Part shown: positions 29,801-36,619 of the stretch, piece by piece
Numbering within the stretch: position 1 is the stretch's first letter
Layout: every line of letters begins with the position of its first letter
DNA from: an uncultured Pseudomonadota bacterium
GTDB lineage: Bacteria > Myxococcota_A > UBA796 > GCA-2862545
NCBI GenBank assembly: GCA_913061235.1
Contig: CAJXTB010000005.1
Span: forward strand, 124,001-188,000
Reading direction: 5' to 3'
Length of the DNA stretch: 64,000 nt
Made by a program: the position numbers and the translations under genes
Notes under the pieces: generated by a model
Told to the model about the DNA's origin: nothing
The model's input: the letters and a program-made list of their open reading frames with translations, nothing else
Database searches by the model: none

Positions 29801-30784
29801 TTATGTCACGGTCCCGGGCGTTGCGTGCGGGGAAGGACAGTCTGGGACATTGGCAAAGGCGCCATCGCTCTCAGGACGTTCGTACAGGCGTGCCAAAACC
29901 CAGCGCTGAAAGCCCGAATAGGTGACGGTCTGTGGAGAACCTGCGCTCTTGACCAGCTCGGTGTGCAAGTCCGCGAGACGAAAGAACGGCACACTTGGGT
30001 AGGCATGATGCGCTGTGTGAAAGGTCATGTTCCACACAAGCCATCGCCAAGGAGCGGGTGCGGCGACAGTTCGCGTGCTCGCCCACAGGTCGTCGGTCAT
30101 GGCCATACCGGTGTGTTCAACCGTGTTCTGTACCTGATGGGTCCACTTCATGGTGAGCATGGGCCCGAGCCAGACCGCGAGCACTAGCCAAGACCCGGTG
30201 GCGACACTTACAACGGCGATAGTGCCGTAGATCGCCAGATGAATGCGAGCTTCCAGGGTGAGCTTTCGAGCAACAGCGGCCGGGCGTTCGTAGGCGTCAA
30301 AGGTCCCGCTGGCGCACGCCACAAGCGATGTCAGCCGGCCCCACCAATACGTCAGACCACTGACATAGAGCACATAGGAACGCAAGGTGTACGGCGTACG
30401 GAAGGCCAGCTCGGCGTCTTGGTTGGGGTCGCCAGTGTAGCGGTGGTGACGCAAGTGGTGGTGCCGGTCATAGTCGCGTGGGTAGAGCATCAACAGGCCG
30501 ATGACGCGCCCCCACAGGGCGTTTGCACGACGAGACGCAAACACCGTTCCGTGCGAGAGCTCATGCTGGGCGGCGTAGAGGTAGTTGACGACGATGCCCG
30601 TCATGCACCACAGGACGGGTGTCCACAGCGTGCCCCAGGTTCCCCATAGAAGGGCAGCGAAGACGCACACAAGGCCCAGGTGAGTGCCAAGATGAACCGT
30701 TCCTCTGAGCGACGACCGGGCCGACAGCTCCCGGGTTTGCCGTGCAGTCAATGGACCGGATGTTGGGGTGATGCGGACGCTCAT
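29801..30784 (-). CDS. Membrane fatty acid desaturase family protein
   Basis: I start at ATG 30784 (MSVRITPTSG); the frame upstream has no sensible sequence. The 327-residue protein has the three histidine clusters of membrane di-iron desaturases: HELSH (near 83), HHLRHH (near 115) and HTAHH (near 258), with hydrophobic pairs between them. It would introduce a double bond or hydroxyl into a lipid acyl chain or a similar lipid at the cytoplasmic membrane. The 3' neighbour is the oxidoreductase at 28785. The gene is divergent from the MqnD-like gene with about 85 bases between start codons. Confidence 0.9.
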   Translation of the reverse strand: MSVRITPTSGPLTARQTRELSARSSLRGTVHLGTHLGLVCVFAALLWGTWGTLWTPVLWCMTGIVVNYLYAAQHELSHGTVFASRRANALWGRVIGLLMLYPRDYDRHHHLRHHRYTGDPNQDAELAFRTPYTLRSYVLYVSGLTYWWGRLTSLVACASGTFDAYERPAAVARKLTLEARIHLAIYGTIAVVSVATGSWLVLAVWLGPMLTMKWTHQVQNTVEHTGMAMTDDLWASTRTVAAPAPWRWLVWNMTFHTAHHAYPSVPFFRLADLHTELVKSAGSPQTVTYSGFQRWVLARLYERPESDGAFANVPDCPSPHATPGTVT

Positions 30785-30869
30785 GACACAACGATACCGT
30801 GATGCACCGGTTGGTGGCGGGTCAATCACACTCACACGGACTACCACTCACGCCGAACCCGGAGACGCC

Positions 30870-31694
30870 ATGCCGACCTACACCGTTCAATGCAGCCCCG
30901 ACGCCGACGACCTGTTCATGATGCGCGCCCTCACCAACGGGGCCATCGATACAGGTGACCGTACCTACGTGGTGGACACGTCTCCCACCGATGAGCTGAA
31001 CACCCTCGCTAGCGGCGGCGGGCCGGACGTCTGTGCCATCAGCACCGCGCACTATCCACTTGTGGCGGACGTCTACCAGATGCTTCCGCACGGCGGCTCT
31101 ATGGGTGAAGGCTACGGGCCAGTCCTGGTCTCACCCACGCCCCGCACACTTGAGAGCTTTGAAGGCAAGAAGGTGGCCATCCCAGGCACCTCTACGAGTG
31201 CCTGGGCCACAATGAAGATGGTGGTGAACGTTGACCCTGTCGTCGTCCCCATTGCCCCGTACGAGCTCACCTTTGAGGTGCTGCGCTCCGGCAGTGTGGA
31301 AGCTGCACTGCTCATTCACGAAGGCCGACTCACCTACCCAGCAGAGGGCTTTCACAAGGTCATTGATCTGGGTGAATGGTGGGACGAGACCAGCGGAGGA
31401 CTACCCCTTCCTCTAGGCGGCAACACCATCAAGCGAAGCCTTGGAGACGACGTCATTGCCTTGGTCAGCGACGACCTGCGCCGGTCCATCCAGCACGCCA
31501 TCGACAACCGTGAGGACTCGATTCACTGGTTGTTGTCGCAGTCGTCGGCGCTGACGACCCGTGATGAAGTCAGCGAGTACCTGGACATGTACGCCAACGG
31601 TCGGACTCTGGACTACGGAGACGCCGGTCGCGCAGGCATCTCCCTGTTCCTGGAGCGTCTCGGCTTCACCGATGACATCGACTACGCGCCCTGA
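30870..31694 (+). CDS. MqnD-like periplasmic-binding-fold protein
   Basis: Start at ATG 30870, which has GGAG 5 bases upstream. The 274 residues (MPTYTVQCSPDADDLFMM at the start) show the MqnA/MqnD pattern: SPDADDLFMMRAL, then LNTLASGG and DVCAISTAHYP, GSMGEGYGPVLVSP, and KKVAIPGTSTSA. MqnD makes 1,4-dihydroxy-6-naphthoate in the futalosine route to menaquinone, but the same fold includes substrate-binding proteins, and no other mqn gene is in the window, so function is uncertain. No signal peptide is seen. The 3' end converges with the LysR gene at a distance of 5 bases. Confidence 0.75.
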   Translation: MPTYTVQCSPDADDLFMMRALTNGAIDTGDRTYVVDTSPTDELNTLASGGGPDVCAISTAHYPLVADVYQMLPHGGSMGEGYGPVLVSPTPRTLESFEGKKVAIPGTSTSAWATMKMVVNVDPVVVPIAPYELTFEVLRSGSVEAALLIHEGRLTYPAEGFHKVIDLGEWWDETSGGLPLPLGGNTIKRSLGDDVIALVSDDLRRSIQHAIDNREDSIHWLLSQSSALTTRDEVSEYLDMYANGRTLDYGDAGRAGISLFLERLGFTDDIDYAP

Positions 31695-31699
31695 TTCGC

Positions 31700-32578
31700 C
31701 TACGCGAGGGGGAGCTCACGAAGCTCGTTCGCCAGGGCCACCAAGCGCTCGGTGAGCGGATGGTCCTTGCGCCAGACCAAGCGGAAGACGTCATCTGCCA
31801 ACGGAAGTCCGGGCGCTAAGTCAATGAGCGCACCGGACGCGAGGTCGTCGTGTACGAAGTACTCCGGCAGCACCGCGACTCCGGCGCCAACCAAGATTCG
31901 CTGTCGGATAGCGCCGATACCGCCCAGGTATTGGTAGCGAGCGAAGGGCCACACAGCGGCTTTATCCGTGGCGTCCTGAAGGTAGCGAAACAGCGGTAGG
32001 TCCGCGGTGACGTCAAGCAGAGTGTGGCCTTGGGCGTCAGACGGGGCCTCGAACACGGCGACACCGGGAGCACCGACGAACACGTACTTTTCGGGGTGTA
32101 GAACCGCGTAGCGAACCCGTGGGCTGACCAGTCGGGCACTCAAGACCGCGGCATCCAGTTCACCCCGCTCCACTCGTCCAATCAGGTCGGGCGTGTCGCC
32201 CATATACAGGTGAAGCAAGCGCTCGGGTGCTGTCGCTTCGAGCGTGGAGAGTGCCGGAGTTAGCCAAGAAAGCCCGAGTTCAAAGCGCGTTCCTACGGTC
32301 AATGAGTACGGGGGCGTGCCAAGATCTCCGCGAGCGACTGCGGCAGACCTCTCCGCCTCAGCCACAACGATTGCCGCATGGGGTCGCAGACGCAGCGCAG
32401 CCTCGGTCATGGAGACCTGGCGAGTCGTGCGCTCGAACAAAGCGCATCCGATGTGCTCTTCGAGGCGTCGAATGCGGTCGGAGAACGCACCAGGAGATAA
32501 CGAAACGCGGCGGGACGCGGCACGAAACGTGTCGCAGTCGGTGGCAGCGAGAAAGCAGCGAAGGTCGTCGAGGTCCAT
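31700..32578 (-). CDS. LysR-family transcriptional regulator, divergent from the MNIO operon
   Basis: I start at ATG 32578 (MDLDDLRCFLAA), the usual LysR beginning; the open frame extends upstream without similarity. The 292-residue protein has an N-terminal winged helix-turn-helix (about 1-60, FRAASRRVSLSPGAFSDRIRRLEEHIG) and a C-terminal LysR-substrate domain (SLTVGTRFELGLSWL, LVGAGVAVLPEYFV). LysR regulators usually control a divergently transcribed operon; the next start codon is 105 bases away on the plus strand, the lipoprotein of the MNIO cluster. An inverted repeat lies between them. The co-inducer is unknown. Confidence 0.92.
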   Translation of the reverse strand: MDLDDLRCFLAATDCDTFRAASRRVSLSPGAFSDRIRRLEEHIGCALFERTTRQVSMTEAALRLRPHAAIVVAEAERSAAVARGDLGTPPYSLTVGTRFELGLSWLTPALSTLEATAPERLLHLYMGDTPDLIGRVERGELDAAVLSARLVSPRVRYAVLHPEKYVFVGAPGVAVFEAPSDAQGHTLLDVTADLPLFRYLQDATDKAAVWPFARYQYLGGIGAIRQRILVGAGVAVLPEYFVHDDLASGALIDLAPGLPLADDVFRLVWRKDHPLTERLVALANELRELPLA

Positions 32579-32586
32579 GTCCGCAC

Positions 32587-32613
32587 TATACGCTACAGCC
32601 GAACAATCGTATA
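32587..32613. promoter_or_regulatory. Inverted repeat TATACG/CGTATA in the LysR-MNIO intergenic region
   Basis: TATACG at 32587-32592 is mirrored by CGTATA at 32608-32613, 15 bases apart, within the 105 bases between the LysR and lipoprotein genes. It lies close to the LysR start. LysR sites have imperfect dyads of about this span, so it is a candidate operator, not a demonstrated one. A TAGTAT at 32652-32657 could be a -10 element for the plus strand. Confidence 0.4.
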
Positions 32614-32683
32614 CCGTAGATGCGGATGGCCCCAACGATACAGACGGCGCATAGTATTGTTGAGCCCAAACGGAGGATTACCC

Positions 32684-33241
32684 ATGCGTTCCATTATCGC
32701 CATTGCCGGACTAGCTGCCTGTGCCCACTCACCCGAGGCCACAGTGCCTGAAGCCACGTCCCCCGATGTTGAAGTCAACGAGACCGACAACAACGGCGAA
32801 GACGCGATGCAGCGCGCGGCAGCAATCGATGCGCAGGTGACCACTGACCTAGAGCGCTTGGACGGCCTTGAGGTCTTTGAGGTCGGCGAACTGGTTGGCG
32901 GAGACGCCTCACAGGCCTTCAACTGCTACGGCCCTTGTGAAGGTGCTGACGCGATTGTGGACGACTACGAACAGCGCGCACAGGCTCTACACGAGCTGAC
33001 CGAAGTCGCCATGGCCGAGACGGACGCAGCCACCTGCGACTTGGATCAAGTGGACACCCACCTGGACGCACTGCGCGCATTGCAGGTTGTGGACGTCGGC
33101 GAGTTTGTGAGCCAGCAGGCCGCACCATCGCCCTACTGCTACAACTTGCCGTGCCCGGCTGACGAGGCCGCGGCGCAGGAAGTGAACTGTGCGCGTGCGA
33201 ACACCTTGGCCGGTCTTGTTGAGCGCACTTCGGGCGAATGA
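32684..33241 (+). CDS. Predicted lipoprotein with two CY..PC cassettes; candidate MNIO substrate
   Basis: Start at ATG 32684, preceded by CGGAGGA 6 bases away. The 185 residues begin with a lipoprotein signal (MRSIIAIAGLAAC; Cys13), then an acidic, Pro/Thr-rich linker and two homologous units. Unit 1 (about 59-110) has VFEVGELV, then NCYGPC (Cys81, Cys85). Unit 2 (about 127-182) has VVDVGEFV, then YCYNLPC (Cys152, Cys157). Each cassette is followed by an acidic helical segment with an AD start. Other Cys are 118 and 169. The stop overlaps the MNIO start by ATGA. MNIO enzymes modify Cys or other residues of small substrates, often encoded just upstream, so this is the best substrate candidate. 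No homologue is known to me. Confidence 0.82.
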   Translation: MRSIIAIAGLAACAHSPEATVPEATSPDVEVNETDNNGEDAMQRAAAIDAQVTTDLERLDGLEVFEVGELVGGDASQAFNCYGPCEGADAIVDDYEQRAQALHELTEVAMAETDAATCDLDQVDTHLDALRALQVVDVGEFVSQQAAPSPYCYNLPCPADEAAAQEVNCARANTLAGLVERTSGE

Positions 33242-34185
33242 CAACTCGATTTCCGGAGCTCCACAGGCGTAGTCTTGGCATTGGCCTCGACCTTCCCTGG
33301 GGTGCGCCAACCGGTTGGGCTACGGACGCCTCGGGCCAAGACTCCCCGAGTCCAGCGCTCGCGACCTTCGCTGAGACTACGCTATCTAGGCAGTCTCATG
33401 CGTTTGTGTCGTGGCAGCCTCGCAGTCGTGGTGTGCTGAATCTGGCGGACTACACACCGGCATGGGACGCGCTGCTCGGCAGCCTTGCGCCCTCGGTCAC
33501 GCGAGCACTGCATCACACAGCCCTCAACCTGGCGCACTCCAAGCGCTACGACCGCAGCGCCCTGCTGGACTTCACCAATGCGCTCATAGAGCGCTACGGA
33601 TTTGCTTGGGTCAACGAAGACCTAGGCTTCTGGTCGCTGAACGGAAAGCCTCTTCCCTACCCGCTTCCCCCGCTTCTGACCGATGACGGCCTCTCTGTCG
33701 CGGTGGACAACATCTGTGAATGCCAAGAAGCGCTCGTTGTTCCGCTTCTCGTTGAGTTTCCCGGCTTTTCACGCGACTGGAGCTTGGTGATGGGCCCGTG
33801 GGACGCCTACGACTTCTTTCGCGAGGCCGTTGTGCGCAGCAACAGCCCCTGTACACTCGACACCGGGCACCTCCTGTCGTGGCGATGGGGCCAAGGACAT
33901 CGTGGCCAGGCACTCTTTGACGCTCTAGAACGCCTGCCTCTCGACCACTGCTTTGAGATTCACTTGTCCGGTGCGCAGACCGATGGTGAGCGATTCTTGG
34001 ATGCTCACCACGGGGCGTTGATGGACGAACAGTTCACATTGCTCGCGCACCTCTTGCGGCGATGTCCCAACGTTCGCGCAGTCACCTTTGAGGACCCAGT
34101 ATTGACCGCAGATGGCCAGATGAACACCGTCTCAGCCACTTCTTGGGCAGCGCTTCAGGAAGCCGTTGCGGAGTGGCTACCATGA
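33238..34185 (+). CDS. DUF692 / MNIO-family multinuclear iron oxidase
   Basis: A 315-residue TIM-barrel-type protein of the MNIO (DUF692; MbnB/TglH) family. Conserved blocks and likely iron ligands: ALHHTALNLAHS (His92/93), WVNEDLGFWS with PLPYPLPPL (Glu127, Asp128), LVEFPGFSRD (Glu173), LDTGHLLSW (Asp208, His211), EIHLSGA (His242), DAHHGAL (Asp255, His257/258) and VTFED (Glu285). Known members use two or three irons and oxygen to rework Cys, Asp or other residues of ribosomal peptides. The family's usual His in the third block is replaced by Asp (NEDL). The gene overlaps the lipoprotein gene and the following partner gene by ATGA. Substrate and product are inferred from position. Confidence 0.88.
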   Translation: MTTRFPELHRRSLGIGLDLPWGAPTGWATDASGQDSPSPALATFAETTLSRQSHAFVSWQPRSRGVLNLADYTPAWDALLGSLAPSVTRALHHTALNLAHSKRYDRSALLDFTNALIERYGFAWVNEDLGFWSLNGKPLPYPLPPLLTDDGLSVAVDNICECQEALVVPLLVEFPGFSRDWSLVMGPWDAYDFFREAVVRSNSPCTLDTGHLLSWRWGQGHRGQALFDALERLPLDHCFEIHLSGAQTDGERFLDAHHGALMDEQFTLLAHLLRRCPNVRAVTFEDPVLTADGQMNTVSATSWAALQEAVAEWLP

Positions 34186-34910
34186 GCGCACAGGACGCGG
34201 TCGCCGCCGTAGAAGACGCCCTTGTGGCTGTGCTGTTCAACGTAGACCAGCGTCAGAAGCTACACAACGGAGACGACCTCGGCCTGTCGTCACAGCTCGC
34301 TGCGGACCTGCGCACCCCGAGCCGCTGCGACGTCGACGCCCTTGCAGACGAGATCTGCACGCGACTGACCCAGCGAGCCAACCGAGGTGTAGGTCGCCTA
34401 CAAAACGCCTTTCCCAAGACCATTGCGGCATGCACACAAGCGAGTGGTGAGGCCCCACTGTTTGAAGCGTTCCTGGCTAGCCCGGAGTCCGCTCCCTGGA
34501 TGCCCGTTCCCTTCGCCGGGCTCGGCCCGTGTCTCGAACAGTGCTTCGCTGACTGGGCCACACAGCAGCCTTGGGCAGACGACGACGTTGTTCTGCACGA
34601 GCTGCTGACCGCCGTTTGCCGTGCCCTAGCGACTGACCCGACTCCCGCCTTCGTGCCCCCCACAGCCTTCCGAGGACAGCCAGGACACTGGGTTGCCGTC
34701 ACTATTGGCGCGTCCCCAACCGTGTTCGCCGCTGTACAAGGCAAAGTCGTGACCGGACCCATCACCCCGCTCATCGCGGGCTTGTTGCAAGGCCAATCGG
34801 ACGCGGACCTCGCTGTGGCCTTTGGTGTTCCCGAACCGCGCGTGGCGATGACCCGGCAAGCCGTGGTTCAAAAAGGCTTGCTCCAAAGTACAGAGCCCAC
34901 AGACCGCTAA
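34182..34910 (+). CDS. Partner protein of the MNIO, C-terminal winged-helix-like domain
   Basis: I start at ATG 34182 (MSAQDAVAAVED), which overlaps the MNIO stop by ATGA. The 242 residues show no catalytic motif. The N-terminal 150 are helical, with several Trp-containing segments (WATQQPWADDD) and scattered Cys. The C-terminal 70 residues (VTGPITPLIAGLLQGQ, SDADLAVAFG, QAVVQKGLL) look like a winged-helix or peptide-recognition element. MNIO enzymes are nearly always encoded with a second protein of about this size (MbnC, TglI, BufC) that presents the substrate; this gene occupies that place. The family assignment is by context, as I see no clear sequence match. Confidence 0.72.
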   Translation: MSAQDAVAAVEDALVAVLFNVDQRQKLHNGDDLGLSSQLAADLRTPSRCDVDALADEICTRLTQRANRGVGRLQNAFPKTIAACTQASGEAPLFEAFLASPESAPWMPVPFAGLGPCLEQCFADWATQQPWADDDVVLHELLTAVCRALATDPTPAFVPPTAFRGQPGHWVAVTIGASPTVFAAVQGKVVTGPITPLIAGLLQGQSDADLAVAFGVPEPRVAMTRQAVVQKGLLQSTEPTDR

Positions 34911-35083: not shown

Positions 35084-36619
35084 ATGTGGTTGGGACTGAT
35101 TGGCGTTCTGTTGGCACCGATGGCACACGCTACGGACGGAGACGGTGATGGCTGCGTAGATGAGTTCGCAGGGAATGGCGCTTGTGTATCGGTCACGGCG
35201 ACCGTTGACCCTACCGCCACGGTTGGGGCATTGAGCCAAGTCCGCAGCGGGGCGAGCGTGGGGCCCGAGACGGCGATTGGAAGCGGCGTGACCATTGGCG
35301 AGCGGTCCACTCTTGCCGGGCGCGATGACCACCTGTCCAACCCCGTAAGTATCGGGAATGACGTAGTTATTGGGCGTACTGTGACCCTTGGGCCTGACCA
35401 CGTCCTGGGAGCCGGAACCATTCTCTCTCGGTCTGTGACCTCTGGGTCCGACCTGACCACGGGTACTGACGCCTTCGTTGGCTACGCCTCGCAGCTCGGG
35501 TCCAACGTGACCCTCGGCAACTCTGCGGTGGTGGGAAGCCTGGTCACAGTGGGCGACCATACCGGGATTGGCAACCTTGCGGTTGTCGGTCGGAATGTCA
35601 CGATATCGTCCGCCGCCATCCCTTCTCAAGGCAGTCAAATCAACGGTATTGTGGGCCCGGATGTCTCAGTTGGTGCAGATGTCGAGATTCAGAGCGGGGC
35701 TCGCATTCGCAAGCGCACCGCGATTCTGGACGGCGCTACGGTGGAGAGCACCGCACGTGTTGGGCGTGACGTCAGAATTGGTGCGGGTAGCACGGTGCGC
35801 GGAGCCGTTCGCGCAGAGGCCATCATTGGTGCCGGAGCAACCGTTGGCGACGGTGCACGCGTTGCGCGCGGTGCCGAGGTCTGCGATGGCGCCACTGTTC
35901 CTGACAGCGGTCTCGTAGTCGAGTTCTACCCGGTTGAAGGCTGCCTTCCAGAGGTGAGCTGCAAGGCCATTCTCGACGCTGGGCGAAGCGACGGCAGCGG
36001 TGTCTACGCCATTGACCCAGACGGAGCGGGCGGAAACGCCGAGTTTGACGTGTACTGCGAGATGGACTTCGACGGCGGTGGCTGGACGAATGTTGGCTAC
36101 AACGTCAACGTCAACCGCACCTACCTGACAGGAACCTGGAGCGCGACCAGCGTTGGCAACCCAGTAGAGCCCACTGACGGCCTACAGCGCGCCATCAACC
36201 CGGAAATGATGGGCATCGCGTACACACAGATGGCCTTCTACATTGATGACCCACAGTGGACAGACGCCAGCCGCAGCTACACCGGATGGTGGAAAGGTGC
36301 GCATCCTTCGAGTACCTACCAGATCACGTCCAATGCGTGTCAGCTACTCGAGCGAACCGACCCCGGTCAGTGGAACGGTCAGCTCGTGTACTTCGCCGGC
36401 GATGGCGCCAACGACAACGGCTGCTCCGGCGGCGGCTCGGTCCTCGGTGGGCACACCTGCGACGACGGCGGCGGCGGCGTGACGACCAACAACGCCTGGC
36501 CAACGAACGGCAGCGACGCACTGTGGGGCTACAACTGCATCAGCTCGTACTCGCCCACAGGTGCGTACAAGGGCTCACCCATTGGGAACTTGGGCGAGCA
36601 CTCATACTGGGTCCGGTAG
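35084..36619 (+). CDS. Secreted hexapeptide beta-helix protein with fibrinogen-like domain (1)
   Basis: A 511-residue exported protein with signal peptide (1-17, ending MAHA) and a good ribosome-binding site (GGGGAGAG). Residues about 36-290 are hexapeptide repeats of the [IV]G-x4 type (SIGNDVVIGRTVTLG, VSVGADVEIQSGA), predicted to form a left-handed beta helix, as in acyltransferases but here outside the cell. From about 308 the protein matches the start of fibrinogen-like domains: SCKAILDAGRSDGSGVY, then FDVYCEMDFDGGGWT, followed by a Trp/Gly/Cys-rich C-terminus ending in WVR. A paralogue is at 44559-46493. It may be an adhesin or a matrix protein; that is inferred. Confidence 0.82.
   Translation: MWLGLIGVLLAPMAHATDGDGDGCVDEFAGNGACVSVTATVDPTATVGALSQVRSGASVGPETAIGSGVTIGERSTLAGRDDHLSNPVSIGNDVVIGRTVTLGPDHVLGAGTILSRSVTSGSDLTTGTDAFVGYASQLGSNVTLGNSAVVGSLVTVGDHTGIGNLAVVGRNVTISSAAIPSQGSQINGIVGPDVSVGADVEIQSGARIRKRTAILDGATVESTARVGRDVRIGAGSTVRGAVRAEAIIGAGATVGDGARVARGAEVCDGATVPDSGLVVEFYPVEGCLPEVSCKAILDAGRSDGSGVYAIDPDGAGGNAEFDVYCEMDFDGGGWTNVGYNVNVNRTYLTGTWSATSVGNPVEPTDGLQRAINPEMMGIAYTQMAFYIDDPQWTDASRSYTGWWKGAHPSSTYQITSNACQLLERTDPGQWNGQLVYFAGDGANDNGCSGGGSVLGGHTCDDGGGGVTTNNAWPTNGSDALWGYNCISSYSPTGAYKGSPIGNLGEHSYWVR

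Follow-up and report, generated by a model that had tools for sequence, protein, structure and literature searches.

The window, by which we mean the whole stretch of 64,000 nucleotides analysed here, carries a compact operon encoding, in this order, a lipoprotein, an MNIO (DUF692) iron enzyme and a third protein that is its putative partner, together with a LysR-type regulator gene (Table 1). The original prediction, made from the letters of this DNA, described a lipoprotein with paired cysteine cassettes at the head of a three-gene, ATGA-joined operon divergent from a LysR gene. This arrangement is confirmed: both the lipoprotein/MNIO and the MNIO/third-gene junctions are 4-nt ATGA overlaps, the LysR gene lies on the minus strand, and the first reading frame specifies the lipobox L-A-A-C13 and the cassettes C81-Y-G-P-C85 and C152-Y-N-L-P-C157. 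A GGAGG Shine-Dalgarno motif stands immediately 5′ of the lipoprotein ATG. Between the LysR and lipoprotein genes, AACAATCGTAT and ATAGTATTGTT form the arms of an imperfect inverted repeat (window 32602-32661) that is, judging by its sequence, a possible operator; a sigma-70 promoter scan of the same intergenic region returned no sigma-70-like match.

Table 1. Features of the lipoprotein-MNIO-partner locus (window coordinates)
Feature	Position	Strand	Basis or description
LysR-type regulator gene	31700..32578	-	PF03466 85.6 bits, PF00126 65.1 bits
Intergenic region with imperfect inverted repeat (32602-32612 / 32651-32661)	32579..32683		weak basis
Lipoprotein gene, putative modified substrate, 185 aa	32684..33241	+	signal peptide, disordered linker, two alpha-beta-(CY loop)-alpha repeats
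Lipobox Cys13, expected lipidation site	32720..32722	+	alignment, invariant in 12/12 lipoproteins
Cassette 1, CYGPC, residues 81-85, repeat 1	32924..32938	+	alignment
Cassette 2, CYNLPC, residues 152-157, repeat 2	33137..33154	+	alignment
MNIO (DUF692) iron enzyme gene, 315 aa	33238..34185	+	PF05114; invariant ligands; PbsC-like spacing
Partner gene, type-2 (TglI-like), 242 aa	34182..34910	+	AlphaFold2 model and Foldseek; no DUF2063
RRE-like winged-helix domain of partner, residues 164-230	34671..34871	+	four strands then three helices in model

A LysR orthologue adjoins the module in two other genomes, G012 (58% identity, divergent) and G274 (48%, downstream), and was not found near the remaining module loci. 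Because it recurs only beside these two, we regard the regulator as an optional part of the module. Inspection of the flanks by ORF showed no further recurring neighbor. Within the window, a PF02621 (VitK2_biosynth) protein is encoded at 30768-31694, its 3′ end a few bases from that of the LysR gene, and the reading frame at 35084-36619 combines a signal-peptide-like start with a long hexapeptide-repeat (left-handed beta-helix) stretch and a weak fibrinogen-C-like domain.

The lipoprotein is a duplicated protein, its two halves being homologous (hhalign probability 98.4%, E 5e-15, 36% identity) and each containing one cassette. Among the 12 lipoproteins aligned, Cys13, Cys152, Tyr153 and Arg171 are invariant, 11 fit a [LVI][ASTVI][GAS]C lipobox as judged by eye, and 11 keep the second Cys of cassette 2. 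Spacing of the CY loops differs among orthologues, with cassette 1 mostly CxxxC (CAYNQPC in G274) and cassette 2 CxxxxC in most members and CxxxC in two Polyangium. The cassettes are imperfectly kept, which is a point against reading the operon as a modification module: G018 has no Cys left in cassette 1, where the Tyr is retained, and lacks the second Cys of cassette 2, and in G019 cassette 1 is absent. Across the cassettes, the conservation of Tyr equals or exceeds that of Cys. The lipoprotein evolves faster than the enzyme, orthologues being 18-36% identical to the window lipoprotein as against 46-54% for the MNIO, and its dN/dS is below 1 in every pair (0.12-0.78), indicating purifying selection that is weaker than on the MNIO. 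Conservation, dN/dS and co-occurrence together rule out chance ORFs or a pseudo-operon, and the gene arrangement is not due to chance because it recurs in genomes of five families. The predicted structure is confident from residue 40 on (pLDDT 79-97 in 10-residue blocks), each half folding as helix-strand-CY loop-helix; the alignments behind the structure models held 11-12 sequences. The lipoprotein gave no Pfam match and no meaningful NCBIfam match, its predicted fold resembles no PDB chain (best E 2.9, probability 0.03), and a sequence search of PDB chains found no credible solved relative of either the lipoprotein or the partner.

The second gene product scores 57.4 bits against PF05114 (cut-off 25), and the fused homologue of G012 scores 41.0. 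Its assignment as a DUF692/MNIO protein in the original prediction therefore stands, but the accompanying statement that it has most of the iron-ligand blocks was too cautious: all nine positions (H92, D128, E173, D208, H211, H242, D255, H257 and E285) are filled, and they are invariant in the 12 orthologues. The best NCBIfam models are ApyH (55.4 bits, cut-off 400) and BufB (51.8 bits, cut-off 310), and because these best scores are far under the cut-offs the enzyme falls in no named NCBIfam subfamily. Membership of the bufferin, ApyH, HvfB and ChrH groups was rejected since scores lie far under the curated cut-offs, and all 12 orthologues are far under that of BufB.

The predicted ligands of PbsC, a Phe-ring hydroxylase, are H97, D133, E178, D213, H216, H247, D260, H262 and E290 (PMC12257519), the same kinds as in the window MNIO at a constant offset of five residues at all nine positions. 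VcMbnB has His91 at the second and Asn168 at the fifth ligand position (PMC8888699), which are Asp and His in the window MNIO, and HvfB has Asn175 (PMC13419390). The active site is of PbsC type and not of MbnB/HvfB type, which weakens any transfer from methanobactin or bufferin chemistry. Alignment of 28 other myxobacterial MNIOs revealed two classes, D/H, which includes the window clade, and H/N. In a midpoint-rooted tree with some long branches, the 12 orthologues form one clade (support 100/100) joined to the D/H class (98/92). In MbnB the substrate Cys is bound by a ferric iron with two His ligands (PMC13419390); with one His ligand lost in the window enzyme, Cys chemistry should not be assumed. 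A relation between Asp128/His211 and a non-Cys target would be a correlation resting on one characterized D/H enzyme, PbsC. A search of 237 genomes of the phylum for ApyH equivalogs, for active-site comparison, found none and its control also gave no match, while the PflD and nitrilobacillin literature held no ligand lists bearing on this correlation.

The AlphaFold2 model of the third protein, built with 12 homologues (pLDDT 86.9), has a helical N-terminal part and a C-terminal domain predicted to consist of four strands and three helices, as in RiPP recognition elements (RRE). Among 350,542 PDB chains searched with Foldseek, the best two matches are both TglI of TglHI (8hi7_A, probability 0.99, and 8hci_A, 0.96); MbnC (7dz9_C) ranks tenth, and 3dee is absent from the best 50 matches listed. 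The likeness to TglI is a moderate one (E 0.04, probability 0.99, TM 0.51, 13% identity). The partner matches no Pfam family, and DUF2063 is absent in all 12 members; as a control, the partner encoded in a different MNIO cluster of the window genome passes DUF2063 with 29.8 bits (cut-off 27.2). Type-2 partners (PME-type 2) are those without a DUF2063 signature that have a DUF2063/RRE-like fold related to 3dee or TglI (8hi7), and we place this protein among them in the scheme of PMC12452194 because it lacks a DUF2063 match and has a TglI-like fold. In the same survey, DUF2063 (type-1) partners accompany precursors that have a signal peptide, and type-2 partners those that have none (PMC12452194). 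The present partner is an exception to this rule, being type-2 beside a precursor that bears a signal peptide. In G019 (C242:2422-2919), one in-frame TGA in the partner gene deletes the RRE-like domain, through either decay or an assembly error.

In separate profile searches of 379 Myxococcota genomes (E up to 1e-40 for the MNIO and up to 1e-3 for the lipoprotein and partner), the three proteins match an identical set of 11 genomes from five families and nine genera. The MNIO threshold is not arbitrary, because with the window MNIO as single query in related genomes the weakest orthologue has E 1.5e-77 and the next MNIO 2.6e-18. The module is present in three genomes of the same family (G018, G012 and G019), in the Polyangium records 6x1, P. 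fumosum and 15x6, and also in G340, G150 and G167, the recurring order being lipoprotein-MNIO-partner with 4-nt overlaps or short gaps. The MNIO and partner are fused into one ORF in G012, G274 and G313. The lipoprotein lies directly 5′ of 11 of the 12 intact MNIO orthologues. The exception is G313, where the fused enzyme on contig C41 is preceded by a 45-aa remnant consisting of the signal peptide and C-terminal helix (L054:4891-5028), and where a full lipoprotein (L061:4177-4758) lies on contig C414 ahead of a fragment similar to the start of an MNIO; apparently there are two operon copies, of which one has kept the precursor and the other has kept the enzyme. In G369 (L056), a Polyangium of the same genus as G340 and G371, the precursor is truncated and fragments of the MNIO and partner remain. 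Since pieces of all three genes are left, the genes decayed jointly.

The earlier proposal that the MNIO and partner are dedicated to the lipoprotein is upheld by the shared set of genomes, the fusions, the joint decay and the TglI-like partner fold. Nor do homologues of the MNIO stand always beside unrelated genes, as all 12 intact ones are in genomes that bear the lipoprotein. No such lipoprotein was seen upstream of 19 other D/H-type MNIOs in related genomes. The module is patchy across the five families, its genes having probably been moved or lost together, and the co-occurrence can in part be explained by adjacency or co-transfer, the linkage being broken in G313 only. Beyond Myxococcota, the analysis covered one exact-peptide scan of species genomes, which found Polyangium only, and a plasmid search that returned only distant MNIOs (<32% identity, none covering 80%).

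It is useful to compare the module with MNIO systems already described. A lipid-anchored substrate, which the original prediction had presented as unlike the short peptides of methanobactin and thiaglutamate clusters, is not in itself new: both lipidation and MNIO modification have been demonstrated for DybA and NedA (PMC12636315), and among Buf2 bufferins about 16% are predicted to be lipoproteins (PMC12452194). The DAG-RiPPs (DybA, NedA; PMC12636315) likewise have a substrate with a lipoprotein signal peptide and an adjacent MNIO gene, NedABC also employs a partner protein, and the invariant Cys13 provides the SPII lipobox by which DAG-RiPP precursors are recognized. The present precursor differs in being a folded two-repeat domain of 185 aa, compared with the 50-160 aa mined in that work (PMC12636315); the window MNIO matches the ChrH and HvfB models weakly and its partner has no DUF2063 signature. 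Bufferins and oxazolins (BufABC, HvfABC) share the order precursor-MNIO-partner and an exported, Cys-containing precursor, whereas here the ligands are D/H and not H/N, the partner is type-2, no DoxX gene was recognized and the MNIO is far below the BufB cut-off. No EGKCG and no Buf1 (DUF2282) or Buf2 sequence was seen in the lipoprotein, as far as the Pfam and NCBIfam models cover them. Precursors of the CxxxxC family, which is probably the 'cluster X' of PMC12636315, have a signal peptide and a CxxxxC-type motif, and some are lipoproteins (PMC12452194). That family, which we compared by description only, is described as accompanied by DUF2063 partners, DoxX and, in many cases, Lactamase_B_2 (PMC12452194), whereas here the spacing is CxxxC/CxxxxC, a Tyr is invariant and the partner has no DUF2063.

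The biphenomycin-like PbsC-PbsD and the aminopyruvatide ApyH-ApyI pairs are closest in enzyme and partner, with the nine predicted ligands of PbsC at identical spacing, ApyH as the best NCBIfam match and a type-2, RRE-containing partner in both. Their precursors, in contrast, are reported without a Sec signal peptide and with B12-radical SAM, arginase and P450 tailoring enzymes; none of these enzymes was seen in the three-gene module, and FHAFRF, the PbsC precursor motif, is absent from the lipoproteins aligned. The ApyHI pair showed activity in Burkholderia and none in E. coli (PMC10635010). The partner model resembles TglI best and MbnC at a lower rank, although with its low identity to TglI the sequence by itself yields no credible PDB relative.

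We think it very likely that these genes form a minimal module of RiPP type that matures an exported lipoprotein. The RRE-like domain of the partner would bind the precursor in the cytoplasm and present it to the MNIO, which, with its multi-iron site and O2, would oxidize CY...PC loop residues within the two-repeat domain. Sec export and lipidation of Cys13 would follow, keeping the modified protein in the cell envelope, and the LysR regulator may control the operon in some hosts. Partner capture before export, MNIO oxidation, and then export and lipidation would be the most likely order by analogy with DybA and NedA (PMC12636315). A point against this reading is that the predicted substrate domain is confidently folded, unlike the flexible peptides in most MNIO cores studied.

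The nature of the product is less certain. One candidate is a lipid-anchored copper chelator like a bufferin or captophorin, in which conversion of the cassette Cys to thiooxazoles or oxazolone-thioamides would provide copper-binding groups at the membrane. This is a credible reading to which we give somewhat less than an even chance: Cys is the target of most known MNIOs, bufferins and oxazolins are exported products that include lipoproteins (PMC12452194, PMC12636315), the paired Cys cassettes are kept in most members, and BufB is among the best NCBIfam matches. However, the bit scores of all 12 MNIOs are far below the BufB cut-off, Asp and His replace His91 and Asn168 of VcMbnB (PMC8888699), no DoxX or copper gene was recognized nearby when the flanks were inspected by ORF, and the partner lacks the DUF2063 found in the partner of a Buf2-like lipoprotein cluster in the same genome. 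That Tyr is as conserved as Cys, or more so, also counts against it. In another reading the Tyr of the CY loops would be hydroxylated to DOPA, for example, or crosslinked as in a Cys-Tyr link, which would leave a catechol or redox center anchored in the envelope, with Cys as recognition or disulfide residues. Such a modification, to which we give a similar or slightly lower chance, agrees with the PbsC-type ligand set and spacing (PMC12257519), with the grouping of the clade among D/H-type MNIOs apart from the H/N type, with the Tyr that survives Cys loss in G018 cassette 1, with the unmodified state of the essential Cys of ApyA (PMC10635010) and with the type-2 class of the partner, which Pbs and Apy share (PMC12452194). 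Ligand type is nevertheless only thinly linked to target, one characterized D/H-type enzyme having been compared, and the MNIO literature searched reports no Tyr hydroxylation. Because of the PbsC-type site with Asp128/His211 and the Tyr conservation, we give Tyr hydroxylation or Cys/Tyr-centered oxidation comparable weight, about as likely as a bufferin-type conversion of Cys to thiooxazole.

It is also conceivable that the lipoprotein is a separate envelope protein travelling with the MNIO, the true substrate lying elsewhere or the MNIO being no RiPP enzyme, since adjacency alone does not prove substrate identity and the cassettes erode in two genomes. We consider this improbable: in 379 genomes the lipoprotein never occurs without the enzyme and partner, nor the reverse, G313 keeps it in trans, no such gene stands upstream at 19 other D/H-type MNIO loci of related genomes, and the partner has a predicted RRE-like domain.

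What appears new is thus the combination of a folded two-repeat lipoprotein, an MNIO clade with PbsC-type ligands and a type-2 partner that accompanies an exported precursor. The literature searched held no description of the lipoprotein precursor family. At 185 aa it is outside the 50-160 aa range of PMC12636315 and inside the 200-aa limit of PMC12452194, and may be unlabelled among the minor precursors of the latter. A folded, lipid-anchored envelope protein carrying DOPA or a Cys-Tyr cofactor in two CY loops, made with a type-2 partner acting on a folded substrate with a signal peptide, would be a new class of MNIO product, an outcome that we regard as doubtful at present. The maturation module adds a compact, testable lipoprotein-plus-MNIO system outside the named subfamilies. 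As an exception to the signal peptide/type-1 rule (PMC12452194) it can be used to probe what the partner recognizes, and its pairing of a PbsC-type site with a CY-cassette protein tests whether ligand type predicts Cys or non-Cys chemistry. The natural MNIO-partner fusions are ready-made single-chain enzymes, akin to the artificial HvfBC fusion, which is active (PMC13419390).

The window genome encodes two further MNIOs, both of the H/N class. One (G000:C3, L002:1372-2211; PF05114 111 bits, H/N type with SEH) has no obvious precursor upstream and sits on a long branch in the tree. The other belongs to a second cluster (G000:C19, L001:926-3043), where the precursor is also a lipoprotein (MMAC lipobox) with Buf2-like C-terminal ECRG/CSGQGGC repeats, and the genes after it encode an H/N-type MNIO and a DUF2063 partner; from its sequence this cluster looks like a lipid-anchored bufferin.
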